Shown here piece after piece: positions 15,242 to 62,643 of a stretch of DNA of 64,000 nt. The stretch spans positions 248,001-312,000 of the forward strand of contig CALUTQ010000001.1 of assembly GCA_944323745.1 (NCBI GenBank). Reading direction: 5' to 3'. Every line of letters starts with the position of its first letter. Positions within the stretch are counted from its first letter, which is position 1. The stretch comes from Candidatus Avelusimicrobium pullarium. GTDB taxonomy: Bacteria; Elusimicrobiota; Elusimicrobia; Elusimicrobiales; Elusimicrobiaceae. The notes beneath the pieces are model-generated. The model made no database searches and was not told the origin of the DNA. It was given only the letters and a program-made list of their open reading frames with translations. The translations under genes and the position numbers were made by a program.

Positions 15242-15261
15242 TTAATTGATAAAATATATTT

Positions 15262-15840
15262 ATGGAAGAAATTACCCTCTCTTTACCATACGTAACCCGT
15301 ATGGTCAGCGTGGACGTTTTGGACAGCACGCAAAATTTAGCCTGTGAACTGGCCTGCCGGGGCTGTGAACACAACACGTTGGTTCTGGCTTATGAACAAA
15401 CGGAAGGCTTTGGGCAGGAAGGCAAAAGCTGGAGCGCCGGCCGCGGCGGCGTTTATTTTACGCTGGTGCTTCGCCCGCAGAAAAAAACGGACGATGTTCT
15501 TTTTTGGGCCGACAAAGCCACGCAAGCCGTGGTGCGTGCGTTTCATCATTTGTTTGCTTTTAAAACCAAAACTAAAAAACCCAATGATGTGCTGGCCTTG
15601 GACCCCAAAACCAAAACCTGGAAGAAAATTGCCGGCGTGCTGGTGCAGCCGCTGTTGACGGAAGATAACACCGCCTGCCTGCTGCTGGGCGTGGGCATTA
15701 ACGTAAATAACAAGCTGCCCGCCTCTTTGCATCAAGCAACCAGTGTTAAAAAACTGCTCGGACGGGAAATTGACCCCGAGTGGGTATTGCAGGAAGTGCT
15801 GGAAGCGTTTTTTGAGCTGTACGCACAAAGTGAATTTTAG
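15262..15840 (+). CDS. birA: Biotin--[acetyl-CoA-carboxylase] ligase, minimal form
   Basis: Activates biotin with ATP and attaches it to the carboxylase carrier domain. The 192-residue protein contains only the BirA/LplA catalytic fold. Motifs are STQNLA, the adenylate-loop relative TEGFGQEGKSW (canonical GRGRxGRxW is altered), GGVYFTLVLRP, KKPNDVL, KKIAGVLV and GVGINVNN. There is no N-terminal winged helix, so it is not a BirA-type repressor, and the C-terminal SH3-like domain is short or absent. There is no Shine-Dalgarno; GATAAA ends 8 bases before the ATG, the same spacing as at the pilin genes. Confidence 0.85.
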   Translation: MEEITLSLPYVTRMVSVDVLDSTQNLACELACRGCEHNTLVLAYEQTEGFGQEGKSWSAGRGGVYFTLVLRPQKKTDDVLFWADKATQAVVRAFHHLFAFKTKTKKPNDVLALDPKTKTWKKIAGVLVQPLLTEDNTACLLLGVGINVNNKLPASLHQATSVKKLLGREIDPEWVLQEVLEAFFELYAQSEF

Positions 15841-16301: not shown

Positions 16302-17027
16302 ATGACAAAAAAAACCTTCGGCGCTAACACCTGGAAAAATTTGCTTGCGTTTGCTTCCCCTTTTTTTAAACGGGGCGAAACGGTGCTGGTGGGGTTTTCC
16401 GGCGGGCCGGACTCGGTTTGCCTGCTGCATTTTTTACATTATTTGGCCGGCAAAAAACATTTTGACTTGGCCGCCGTCCACGTGCACCACGGTCTGCGCG
16501 GCGCCGCGGCCGACGCCGACGCACGCTTTTGCCGCGACTTGTGCAAACAATGGGATATTCCTTTTTTGCTGTATAAAAAAAACGTACGCGCGCTGGCTAA
16601 AAAGCTGGACTTAAGCACCGAACACGCCGCGCGCAAAGCCCGTTATGAAGCTTTTGCACAGGCGGCTAAAAAAACGGGGGCTTGCAAAATTGCGCTGGGG
16701 CATCATTTAGACGACCAAGCCGAAACCGTGCTTTTAAACCTGCTGCGCGGTACGCGGGCGGAAGGGCTGTGCGGCATACCCGTGAGGCGGATGCTTAATA
16801 AAACGACGGAAATCGTGCGCCCGCTTTTGTGTATTACCCGTGCGGAAGTGGAAGAATATTTGCAAGAAAACAACCTCTCCTGCGTCACGGACCAGACCAA
16901 TTTTGACGAAGTATACACCCGCAACTGGATCCGGCGCGAGCTGCTGCCTATGCTTGAAAAAAAGCAACCTAAAATTCGCCAGCATTTAGCCGGTATGGCG
17001 GCACAGCTGGCCGAAAAATTAAAATGA
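16302..17027 (+). CDS. tilS: tRNA(Ile)-lysidine synthase, short form
   Basis: TilS modifies C34 of the CAU-anticodon tRNA-Ile to lysidine so that it reads AUA. The 241-residue product has the N-type ATP pyrophosphatase P-loop SGGPDS (33-38), the VHVHHGLRG block, GHHLDDQAETVLLNLLRGT, and VTDQTNFDEVYTRNWIRRELLP. It lacks the extra C-terminal domains of the longer E. coli-type enzyme (about 430 residues); N-domain-only forms are known. TATACT ends 7 bases before the ATG without a Shine-Dalgarno, suggesting a minimal leader. Confidence 0.93.
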   Translation: MTKKTFGANTWKNLLAFASPFFKRGETVLVGFSGGPDSVCLLHFLHYLAGKKHFDLAAVHVHHGLRGAAADADARFCRDLCKQWDIPFLLYKKNVRALAKKLDLSTEHAARKARYEAFAQAAKKTGACKIALGHHLDDQAETVLLNLLRGTRAEGLCGIPVRRMLNKTTEIVRPLLCITRAEVEEYLQENNLSCVTDQTNFDEVYTRNWIRRELLPMLEKKQPKIRQHLAGMAAQLAEKLK

Positions 17028-17067
17028 TATATCGTCTGGCTGCCCGCTGTGAAGAATACTTGCTTTG

Positions 17068-17115
17068 TTTTTTTTTTTTGATAAATTTTGTCTATGGACA
17101 AAATTTATCAAAAAA
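17068..17115 (+). promoter_or_regulatory. T12 tract plus perfect 19-bp inverted repeat with the pilin 1 ATG in its loop
   Basis: Twelve Ts (17068-17079) run into an inverted repeat with perfect 19-base arms, 17074-17092 and 17097-17115. The 4-base loop TATG contains the pilin start (17094-17096). The arm also holds GATAAA (17080-17085), ending 8 bases before the ATG, a candidate -10 box. TTGCTT at 17060-17065 could be a -35 box with a short 14-base spacer. No Shine-Dalgarno is possible in the T-rich leader. A near-copy precedes pilin 2. It is not a terminator, because the T tract is on the 5' side and an A tract on the 3' side. Confidence 0.8.
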
Positions 17116-17663: not shown

Positions 17664-18445
17664 GTGTTTTTTTGTACGGCAGCGCGCAAGGCGTCAAAGA
17701 ATGTCTTGCGCGCATATTTTTCTGCCCACGGAGTGTGCCCGCAGCGCGGCAAAATAATTTCGTTAAAAGAAACGCCCAGCCGCGTCAGCGGTGCGCTGAC
17801 GCCTTGCAGGGGGTGCGGGTCTTGCTCGCCGTGGATGAGCGTAAGCGGGCAGGCCAGCAGTTGCGCCGCTTTGAGCAATGTGCCTTTGGTGCGCAGGGCC
17901 GCAGCTTGCGGCCAGACGGCCGCAAAAGCCTTTTCATCAGAGGCCGGAAGGTCTTCTTCCTCCAAGAGCGGGCAGAAAAAATCGGCCTTTTGGCAAAGTG
18001 CGTCTACGGTTTGCAAGGCTTCTTGCTGACGGACTGCATCTGCCTTTTTTAAAACGGCCAACGCTTGCAGCAAGGACTGCCCGTCTCGGGCAGACAGGTT
18101 CGCCAAACGGCGTTGGTTAATCAGCGGGACATAGCTGTCTTCCAGCGGAGGGCAGCCTATCCAAATAAGCGCTTTTACGTTTTGCCCGTAAGCGGCCGCA
18201 TACAGTAAAGCCAGCCACGCCCCCCACGAATGACCGATCAGCGTAACGGGGGAAGCGGCAAAATCACTAATTTGCAGATGCAGTTCTTCAACCAATTCAG
18301 CTACGCTGTATTTGCTTTGCCACGGTTCCAATATGCCGGCGTATTTGCCCAGTTCGCGGCAAGGTGCGGCAACGGAGCCGGCCGCACCGGGGCCGCCGTG
18401 TAAAAAAACGAGATGAAAGGGTTCTTGGCCGTATTTGCGTATCAT
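17645..18445 (-). CDS. Alpha/beta hydrolase, proline iminopeptidase-like
   Basis: A 266-residue cytoplasmic alpha/beta-hydrolase. HGGPGAAG (about 17-24) provides the oxyanion hole as in prolyl aminopeptidases. The nucleophile elbow is GHSWGA, the acid is in HGEQDPHP, and the base is in RCGHTPW. HGGPG points to the proline iminopeptidase subfamily, but many esterases share it, so the substrate is open. It starts within the last 4 bases of the TIGR02757 gene upstream on the same strand (coupled). It ends inside pilin 1, with a 19-base convergent overlap. Confidence 0.82.
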   Translation of the reverse strand: MIRKYGQEPFHLVFLHGGPGAAGSVAAPCRELGKYAGILEPWQSKYSVAELVEELHLQISDFAASPVTLIGHSWGAWLALLYAAAYGQNVKALIWIGCPPLEDSYVPLINQRRLANLSARDGQSLLQALAVLKKADAVRQQEALQTVDALCQKADFFCPLLEEEDLPASDEKAFAAVWPQAAALRTKGTLLKAAQLLACPLTLIHGEQDPHPLQGVSAPLTRLGVSFNEIILPRCGHTPWAEKYARKTFFDALRAAVQKNTYIFKR

Positions 18446-19296
18446 TTTTTGTCCTTGCGTACGTCGTGGTGTTTGACCGTTTTTGCGGGTTTTCCGTTGC
18501 GTGCAAAACGGCTTGGCGCCGTTTTTATTTCGGGTGCCAACGCTTGCTCATCCATATCCGGACGAATGCCAAAACGCGTAATGCAAAAATCGTATTTAAC
18601 GGGATCCTGCGGGCAAAAACGGGCCAGCGAACGGGTGATTTCCAATGCGGTTTTCATATCGGCGCTGCTGCGGCGGGTCAGCCCCAAGGCACGTGCGCAG
18701 CGGTGCATATGCACGTCCAGCGGCACGATAAGCAGCCGCGGCGGCACCTGCCAGCCGCCCGGGTCTACGTCGTCGCGGCGCACCATCCAACGCAAAAATA
18801 AATTTAAGCGTTTCAGCGCACTGCCTTTGTCGGGGTCGGGCACCAGGGTGGAAATCGCCCCCCCGCTGCGCAGTTGGCGGGCAAAATGTTTCAGCGCTTT
18901 TTCCGCCGTTGTATCCTGTGGGGAAAGCGCACTTAAAAAACAGGCTTCCAGCGTGCCGTAACGGCGCAGTACTTTTTGTATACACAAAATAAAACGGCCC
19001 AGTTCTTCGGCGGTGGTAAAGCGGTATTTAAAAGAATGAAAATCTTTTTTAAGCCGCTTAGGCGTAGCGGCCAGTATATAGCTGCGCGGCTGCGGCATTA
19101 CGGAAAAAAGAAAATCTAAATTTTTTAAAATGGCTTTTACGTTGCCATAGGCAAAACACGCCGCCAGCAAAGCACCGGTTTCCCGCTCGCGCACGTCCGC
19201 CCAGCGGGACAGAAATTCCAACGGGTCCGGCCGAACCAGATTTTTGCGGTTATAACGGCGGTAGAGAGCTTCAAAAAAAGCTTTGTTTTTTGCCAT
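18442..19296 (-). CDS. TIGR02757 / DUF2400 family protein
   Basis: The 284-residue protein has the DUF2400 features: an N-terminal D-P-L-E-F motif, D/E-R-E near 55 followed by ACFAYGNVKAILKNL, a central helical region, and PLDVHMHRCARALGLTRR plus the C-terminal DPVKYDFCITRFG. The helix-hairpin-helix-like C-terminus resembles DNA glycosylases, and a nucleic-acid role has been suspected, but the function is not established. It overlaps the hydrolase gene by 4 bases. It is divergent from murE, whose start is 33 bases away. Confidence 0.85.
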   Translation of the reverse strand: MAKNKAFFEALYRRYNRKNLVRPDPLEFLSRWADVRERETGALLAACFAYGNVKAILKNLDFLFSVMPQPRSYILAATPKRLKKDFHSFKYRFTTAEELGRFILCIQKVLRRYGTLEACFLSALSPQDTTAEKALKHFARQLRSGGAISTLVPDPDKGSALKRLNLFLRWMVRRDDVDPGGWQVPPRLLIVPLDVHMHRCARALGLTRRSSADMKTALEITRSLARFCPQDPVKYDFCITRFGIRPDMDEQALAPEIKTAPSRFARNGKPAKTVKHHDVRKDKK

Positions 19297-19329
19297 ACGG
19301 TTATTGTATCAATTTGATAATATATACAT

Positions 19330-23014: not shown

Positions 23015-23050
23015 AATTATATTTTATCTTTTTATAGCCAAATGCAGAAA

Positions 23051-26949: not shown

Positions 26950-27041
26950 GTTGGCTGAAAATATTTTTTGACTTTGTTTTTTGACAGAAAAAACTTTGCT
27001 TTTTGCGTACCGGCCTGAAAAAACAGAAGGGGCTTGTTTTG

Positions 27042-27090
27042 TTTTTTTTTTTTGATAAATTTGGCTTATGAGCAAAATTTATCAAAAAAA
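27042..27090 (+). promoter_or_regulatory. Second T12 tract and 20-bp inverted repeat with the pilin 2 ATG in its loop
   Basis: Twelve Ts (27042-27053), then arms 27047-27066 and 27071-27090, 20 bases with a single mismatch, around the loop TATG; the start codon is 27068-27070. GATAAA (27054-27059) ends 8 bases before the ATG. TTGTTT (27034-27039) lies 14 bases upstream of it. Sequence, spacing, T count and loop match the element at pilin 1, about 10 kb away, while the rest of the two genes has diverged. Confidence 0.8.
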
Positions 27091-48415: not shown

Positions 48416-48458
48416 ACCTCCCGACGGTTCTGTTTGTAAAGTTAAGTATAATAATAAA

Positions 48459-49451
48459 ATGAAATATTGGTTTGCCGGAATCGTAACTTTATTGTTTTTG
48501 CCGGTATTTTTGGCGGCGGAGGTGGGGGTTTTGTCCCTTACCAGCGAAGACGTACACACCAAGAAGGAAGATTTTTGGCACACCTTTGAATATTATGTCG
48601 TCGGCCCCTCGGGCAAAACGACAAAATGCCAAGCTACGCGTATTGAAAAAAAATGGTTTGCCACGGCCGCCCATTGTGTGGCGGCGCTTTGCACCAATAA
48701 CTGTACTCTGCGGATGGACTTGCTGGAGCAGCCTTATTCCGCATTTGTCAGCGTCAGCCATTCTGCCAAAAAACCGGTGGTTTTTATTCACCCGGGCTAC
48801 AATGCTTCCCGCCCTGTAGATCACGATTTTGCTTTGCTGAATATAGATTTAAATAAGGCCGACGTCCGCTATTACCGGCGTCCGGCCGGAGCGGAAAAGC
48901 AAAATGTGGCCGTTTCCAAAGCAATGTTTAACCGGTTTCTGCAACGGAACACCACTGCCAGACGGGAGTTTAACAGCATTCTTCATCCGTCGTTCCCGCC
49001 GTTATTGTATATTACCGGCGGTACGGGGCGTTTGAACAGAGAGCTGTCCGTTATTTCTATTTTTGGCGGTAAACGGCAAATTCTTAAAAACCCCAACCCG
49101 ACCGATTATGTGGAAAAGCTGGGCTTTGCCTATACGCCCAACTTTGGCATTAGGGAAGGGATGAGCGGCTCGGGCGTGATGGCCAATACCGGAGAGCTGG
49201 TGGGGGTTGTGTCTGCCTATTTAGGCATATGGGTGGGCAAAAAAAAGGAAGAAGAATATTTTATGTTTGCCGTATTTGACGGAGACATTTTAAACTTTAT
49301 GGAACGTGTAATGGGCAGTGATTATTATAAATTAGACCGCAAAGAAGCAGACAGTTCCTATATCGGCAAGGCCTCTTTTAATCACAGCGATGTAATCAAT
49401 GCCGTGGACGAAATCAAAAGGGCGTCCGTCAAAAATAAAACTTCAAAATAA
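48459..49451 (+). CDS. Exported trypsin-like serine protease (S1 fold)
   Basis: A 330-residue protein with signal peptide (IVTLLFLPVFLAA). The triad is visible: H72 in FATAAHCV, D123 in VDHDFALLNI, and S236 in REGMSGSGV, where the usual GDSGG is GMSGSG as in V8/HtrA-like relatives. A Cys pair after the His (C78, C83) may form a disulfide. There is no PDZ domain, so it is not HtrA. A TATAAT box ends 6 bases before the ATG and no Shine-Dalgarno is seen. Probably periplasmic or secreted; substrate unknown. Confidence 0.85.
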   Translation: MKYWFAGIVTLLFLPVFLAAEVGVLSLTSEDVHTKKEDFWHTFEYYVVGPSGKTTKCQATRIEKKWFATAAHCVAALCTNNCTLRMDLLEQPYSAFVSVSHSAKKPVVFIHPGYNASRPVDHDFALLNIDLNKADVRYYRRPAGAEKQNVAVSKAMFNRFLQRNTTARREFNSILHPSFPPLLYITGGTGRLNRELSVISIFGGKRQILKNPNPTDYVEKLGFAYTPNFGIREGMSGSGVMANTGELVGVVSAYLGIWVGKKKEEEYFMFAVFDGDILNFMERVMGSDYYKLDRKEADSSYIGKASFNHSDVINAVDEIKRASVKNKTSK

Positions 49452-51991: not shown

Positions 51992-52019
51992 TTGACCAGA
52001 TGTCTTTTCGTTTTATAAA
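51992..52019 (+). promoter_or_regulatory. Promoter of pilin 3, implying a near-leaderless mRNA
   Basis: TTGACC (51992-51997), 16-base spacer, TATAAA (52014-52019). The -10 box ends 8 bases before the ATG at 52028, so initiation about 7 bases after it would leave a leader of about 2 bases. No Shine-Dalgarno is present. Confidence 0.65.
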
Positions 52020-52027
52020 ATAAAAAT

Positions 52028-62595: not shown

Positions 62596-62643
62596 TGTTT
62601 TTATTATATAAAATGCGTTTGCCTTGCGGCGGGACAAACGGAC

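Follow-up and report, generated by a model that had tools for sequence, protein, structure and literature searches.

Leaderless mRNAs predicted from an extended −10 promoter 6 bp before the start codon in a gut Elusimicrobiota genome

An extended −10 promoter element lying 6 bp before the ATG very probably produces leaderless mRNAs in this genome, alongside Shine-Dalgarno (SD) initiation. In the proposed mechanism, the housekeeping RNA polymerase would recognize an extended −10 with 6 bp between its core and the ATG, and the first transcribed base would be the A of the start codon or one no more than a base or two away. The resulting mRNA with a 5′-terminal AUG would be bound by the ribosome without SD contact, presumably through recognition of the 5′-AUG itself. 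About 13% of the genes, nearly all of them first in their transcription unit, would be leaderless, and most of the remaining genes would carry ordinary SD leaders transcribed from the same promoter situated at least 15 bp upstream.

A box at fixed spacing from the start codon

The window, a stretch of 64,000 nucleotides, comprises positions 248001 to 312000 of the first contig of a 1.62-Mb genome, a metagenome-type assembly in two contigs. Uncultured Elusimicrobiales, among them Candidatus Avelusimicrobium and UBA1436, are the closest relatives that carry a name. Genome-wide counts are based on 80 stretches of at most 20 kb, each analyzed singly, with the final 20,113 bp of contig 2 excluded. 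A home-made hexamer coding score, blind to everything upstream of the start, was used to place gene starts. This score called 1,389 genes, 656 of them with a single clearly best, unambiguous start, and 583 of these starts are ATG. Box spacing is counted from the last base of the TAnAAT or TAnnnT core to the ATG.

The original prediction described GATAAA, GATAAT, or TATAAA ending exactly 8 bases before the ATG of birA, murE, tatD, and three pilin genes, and all six boxes are present at the positions and the 8-base distance given there. Similar boxes at 6 to 7 bases were likewise found before the protease gene at 48459 (TATAAT, spacing 6), ybeZ (TATAAT, spacing 7), and tilS (TATACT, spacing 7), the last being weak at 2.1 bits. 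GATAAA is composed of G(−14), the base that follows it, and four bases from the beginning of the core; alignment on the TAnnnT core therefore unites the 8-base and the 6- to 7-base groups in a single class, mostly at spacing 6 and occasionally at 5 or 7. Pfam assignments in the window are BPL_LplA_LipB for birA, Mur ligase for murE, TatD for tatD, and N_methyl for the pilins. A further box, beyond those first noticed, precedes a DUF2400 gene starting at 19296 on the minus strand, divergent from murE. The sites in the window outside the two palindromic pilin cassettes are as follows.

15248–15255, plus strand: birA box, GA followed by the core TAAAAT (15250–15255), 6 nt before ATG 15262; 15.8 bits; preceded by TT (extended −10 TGn)
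15262–15840, plus strand: birA-type biotin ligase gene, predicted leaderless; Pfam BPL_LplA_LipB; no SD
16302–17027, plus strand: tilS-like PP-loop gene with weak TATACT at 7 nt (2.1 bits); not safely leaderless
18442–19296, minus strand: DUF2400 gene, predicted leaderless; box TACAAT at 19308–19303, spacing 6; divergent from murE
19316–19323, plus strand: murE box, GA followed by TAATAT (19318–19323); ATG 19330; CAATTTGATAnnATAT kept in the genus
23021–23028, minus strand: tatD box, GA followed by TAAAAT (23026–23021); ATG 23014; AAAAAG[AC]TA[AC]AATATAnnTATG in most same-genus species
48447–48452, plus strand: trypsin-like protease box TATAAT, 6 nt before ATG 48459; Pfam Trypsin
52016–52021, plus strand: pilin 3 box TAAAAT, spacing 6 to ATG 52028; palindrome absent; alternative in-frame ATG 52055
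62603–62608, minus strand: PhoH (ybeZ) box TATAAT, 7 nt before ATG 62595

The divergent start codons of murE and the DUF2400 gene are 33 bp apart (19297–19329), with both boxes inside the gap. Comparable tight divergent pairs occur elsewhere in the genome, for example at L041 4273–4324.

The genome-wide distance histogram that had been suggested as a check on the prediction displays a sharp peak at a single spacing. TAnAAT stands at spacing 6 before 42 of the 583 ATG starts compared to 1.9 in shuffles, an approximately 20-fold excess, and at spacings 5 and 7 before only 2 and 5 starts. GATAA[AT] at spacing 8 is found 10 times in the same starts, with 0.9 expected. The SD sequence forms a peak of its own, with GGAG, GAGG, or AGGA at spacing 6 in 122 starts compared to 7 expected. 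SD sites named in the prediction for dapA, murD, and dnaK are also confirmed, and the intact anti-SD of the 16S rRNA (GGATCACCTCCTTT) indicates that SD initiation coexists with the leaderless mode. A weight matrix of the box matches 59 of the 583 ATG starts and, where uncertain starts are allowed to shift, 179 of the 1,389 genes (about one in eight), 155 of these 179 at spacing 6; its match rate at internal ATGs is about 1 in 10,000. Escherichia coli K-12 is without a spacing peak, whether examined by the identical pipeline or by annotated starts.

The logo of the 49 spacing-6 box genes, palindromic pilins excluded, reads A-W-W-T-G-A/n-TAWAAT-A, with T(−15) in 80%, G(−14) in 61%, A(−6) in 67%, and T(−1) in 98%. 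An SD sequence is present in none of these 49 genes, a result partly forced by the overlap of the two positions. Among 129 box genes other than pilins, matches to a −35 element do not rise above background (mean of 2.97 versus 2.88). An extended −10 promoter is characterized by TGn directly 5′ of the −10 and a weak or absent −35, and the box genes show both, whereas the pilin cassettes do carry a −35. By its sequence features, the consensus TTGnTAWAATA with little or no −35 is an extended −10. The attributes of TA-led genes are found as well: a Pribnow-like box at fixed spacing above chance, the absence of SD, a position at the head of transcription units, and a housekeeping −10, the last judged by sequence only.

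Promoter element or ribosome-binding site

The reading of the box as a promoter −10 yielding leaderless mRNA, put forward in the original prediction, gains support from three tests that set it apart from an A/T-rich ribosome site or chance: the bias toward heads of transcription units, the promoters of tRNA genes, and the box distances in SD genes. Orthologues also keep their class. Orthologues in the related genome G024 carry a box in 13 of 22 cases where the gene in the present genome has one and in 0 of 53 cases where it has an SD sequence (non-pilin pairs, although one pilin-like pair passed the pilin filter).

An improbable alternative holds that the boxes are real but secondary and that the genes are mostly expressed from leadered mRNA made at promoters farther upstream or from a downstream start codon. 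The remaining 9 of the 22 G024 orthologues of box genes, which are SD or unclassified, are in line with this alternative, as are the in-frame downstream starts with SD found in 3 of 58 box genes. Such starts are, however, no more common than in SD genes (28 of 364), and a second promoter of the box type at 9 to 60 nt of box genes does not exceed chance. The gap of 33 bp holding both boxes leaves no room for a leader at murE or the DUF2400 gene. At murE and tatD, the box spacing is constant while the flanks diverge, and a later start codon of tatD is ruled out by the conserved FIDSHAH of TatD, which starts at residue 3.

Still less probable is that the box acts as an A/T-rich ribosome-binding element of a non-SD kind and not as a promoter. 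Elements of this type have been proposed for some Bacteroidetes, the box does lie where a ribosome site would be expected, and its carrier genes are without SD. In operons, where a ribosome site is needed, the box is nevertheless nearly absent: the weight matrix matches 3 of 252 in-operon starts, compared to 50 of 281 starts at the head of a transcription unit. The simple pattern TAnAAT at spacing 6 gives a similar picture, with 35 of 281 starts where the upstream gene is at least 45 bases away and 3 of 252 where it is less than 20 bases away. The same extended −10 motif also precedes 34 of 44 tRNA genes, which are untranslated, compared to 8% of shuffles. SD genes at the head of transcription units (n = 165) have the motif at promoter distance, namely, 73 times at 15 to 60 bases compared to 3.7 expected and 0 times at 0 to 14 bases, while box genes show 42 motif matches at 4 to 8 nt and none at 15 to 60 nt. 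The consensus TGnTAWAAT with its fixed spacing is a further argument against a ribosome-binding element. Chance occurrence of TATAAT-like strings near ATGs, for which the A/T-rich upstream regions might speak, has a negligible probability, as it is refuted by the single-spacing histogram peak and by the absence of this peak in E. coli and in other classes of the phylum.

The picture is so one of a single promoter type used at two distances, with the distance apparently setting the presence or absence of an mRNA leader. The DNA sequence establishes what the promoter element is, where it lies, its exclusivity, and its conservation; the exact start base is deduced from what is generally known about sigma-70 promoters. 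It is the usual distance between the −10 and the start point that connects the position of the promoter with a predicted leaderless mRNA. The real start could lie a base or two off, or a second promoter could supply an extra, leadered transcript in some genes.

Distribution in the Elusimicrobiota and relation to known systems

Of 24 species of the genus, most have the tatD box in an unchanged position, although the sequence farther upstream diverges. The murE box CAATTTGATAnnATAT is kept within the genus, and a box also precedes murE in nearly all copies from more distant Elusimicrobiales. No box is found before murE in Veillonella, Pedobacter, and other outgroups; the outgroup copies of murE and tatD show SD or nothing.

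A phylum survey of 150 genomes compared pattern counts at spacing 6 with those at the control spacing 9, a comparison in which GC-rich variants of the box may be missed. The ratio is 74:6 in the present genome, 1762:270 in 29 other genomes of the genus, and 691:145 in eleven genomes from other genera of the family, compared to only 33:20 in two more genomes of the family (genera g14 and g15). A second family of the same order, f2, shows 544:168 and includes the strongest leaderless signal sampled, 140:29 in G026, a genome with 36% GC. Other families of the class show 94:70, and a sample of 30 genomes from other classes of the phylum is without enrichment (604:583). The box is enriched in both sampled families of the order and not elsewhere in the phylum, and from these ratios, the leaderless trait looks derived, having been gained or greatly expanded in the Elusimicrobiales.

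The base directly before the ATG is biased genome-wide (T, 68%; A, 27%; C, 2%; G, 3%; T or A together, 95%), in contrast to E. coli, in which it is near even. The bias is seen in SD and leaderless genes alike, with T in 98% of the latter. It tracks the leaderless trait across the five relatives sampled: T precedes the ATG at 68% in G024, 80% in G026, and 54% (a partial bias) in G034, and G031 and G087, two genomes without the leaderless trait, show no bias.

Many bacterial groups have TA-led, hence leaderless, genes (Zheng et al. 2011, PMC3160421), examples being Actinobacteria and Deinococcus-Thermus, and the role of the TA-led box as a promoter −10 has been shown in Deinococcus radiodurans (Zhong et al. 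2025, PMC12340547). Low-GC genomes such as that of Lactococcus display a strong TG peak in place of the −35 (PMC3160421; PMC12340547). The TANNNT −10 with its first T ∼12 bp before the start codon, the absence of SD, and the coexistence of SD genes are common to TA-led genes and the genes described here. Unlike TA-led systems, the present case combines an extended −10 and a nearly absent −35 in a mid-GC, gut-associated genome, and a single order of the phylum has the trait. Lomsadze et al. (2018), as summarized in PMC9581028, predicted with GeneMarkS-2 that 21.6% of bacterial species use leaderless initiation, in up to 40% of transcripts; a mixture of SD and leaderless initiation is likewise predicted for the genome studied here. 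Elusimicrobiota are absent from the groups named with leaderless genes in PMC3160421, and the open-licence papers searched contained no relevant report of leaderless genes or pilin palindromes in this phylum.

The case is one of a known mechanism in a new taxon, with leaderless initiation predicted for gut Elusimicrobiota. The Elusimicrobiales would join the bacteria for which reliance on leaderless mRNAs has been predicted, and the derived look of the trait in this order bears on the idea of leaderless genes as an ancient, dwindling remnant. For annotation, start callers trained on SD sequences may put gene starts in the wrong place in genomes of these gut bacteria.

The pilin cassette and its start-codon palindrome

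Approximately 55 of the predicted-leaderless genes are pilins with a common palindromic start site. A palindrome of 36 to 42 bp that overlaps the promoter occurs in 59 dispersed copies in the genome, two of them at pilins 1 and 2 in the window:

17060–17065, plus strand: pilin 1 −35 hexamer TTGCTT, 16 nt before TAAATT
17068–17079, plus strand: pilin 1 poly-T tract of the promoter spacer, 12 T
17074–17115, plus strand: pilin 1 palindrome TTTTTTGATAAATTTTGTC-TATG-GACAAAATTTATCAAAAAA, centered on the start codon; includes the −10 TAAATT (17082–17087) and ATG 17094
27034–27039, plus strand: pilin 2 −35 hexamer TTGTTT
27042–27053, plus strand: pilin 2 poly-T tract of the promoter spacer, 12 T
27048–27089, plus strand: pilin 2 palindrome, centered on the start codon; −10 TAAATT (27056–27061), ATG 27068

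The general form is TTTTTTGATAAATTTTGC-nTATG-AGCAAAATTTATCAAAAAA, and in 57 of the 59 copies, the center coincides with the start codon of a predicted-leaderless pilin gene. The cassette consists of a −35 (TTGACT, TTGCAT, or TTGTAT), the T tract, and the extended −10 TGATAAATT, followed 6 bases later by the ATG in 57 of 59 copies. The palindrome spans the T tract, the −10, and the first six codons, with its center between the A and the T of the ATG. To our knowledge, no promoter class with a symmetry axis inside the start codon has been described.

The 16-bp promoter spacer is filled by the T tract, which measures 12 T in 48 of the 56 copies with a tract of at least 11 and ranges from 11 to 15 T among paralogues. 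Nearly all genomic poly-T runs of at least 11 are pilin promoter spacers. The porA promoter of Neisseria also has a homopolymer spacer, a poly-G tract between the −35 and the −10; unlike in porA, the T tract here adjoins a long palindrome centered on the start codon and is largely constant in length. The poly-T spacer may possibly serve as a slippage switch.

Three observations indicate that conservation of the palindrome acts at the DNA level. In four copies, the right arm is read in another frame (MEKFIKK, MTKFIKK, and MAKFIKK) with the palindrome intact. Two copies without a central ATG, in which an SD-like GAGG precedes an ATG just 3′ of the center, retain both arms. The bases adjacent to the center co-vary as complements, with 42 of 53 copies complementary at the first variable pair compared to 26.6 in shuffles, the copies being related and the sample not independent. 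Conservation of the encoded peptide (MSKIYQK) was rejected as the cause in view of the four other-frame copies and the two without a start codon inside the palindrome. An RNA hairpin was set aside as unlikely, since the left arm would be untranscribed in a leaderless mRNA, and an intrinsic terminator was rejected because no U-tract follows the stem.

The leading guess for the palindrome is an operator for a dimeric protein; roles as a cruciform or in recombination are possible. The palindrome may well, though we would stop short of calling it probable, be a DNA-level control site through which one dimeric regulator, or a process of DNA structure or recombination, acts jointly on ∼57 scattered pilin genes, each being covered from the −10 across the start point into its initial codons. 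Single half-sites elsewhere in the genome are at chance (47, compared to 48 for the reversed control), so that this count points to no regulator gene and yielded no regulator for the palindrome. As a sharply defined candidate control site in many copies, the palindrome is directly testable.

Eleven of 30 same-genus genomes contain copies that match the palindrome pattern exactly, as does no genome outside the genus. In the palindrome-free species of the genus that were examined (G011, G015, and G098), the pilins mostly have SD-like leaders. The counts of pilin-like genes in these three genomes of 1.3 to 1.5 Mb run from ∼65 to 150 or more. Some palindrome pilins (relatives L187, L195, L196, and L199; L026+ 7460) contain an extra leader segment before GFTLIEL, for example, GGFTHKAIPGGFCPAFHSLVPKRAGF, which appears as if it were a small element or a duplication.
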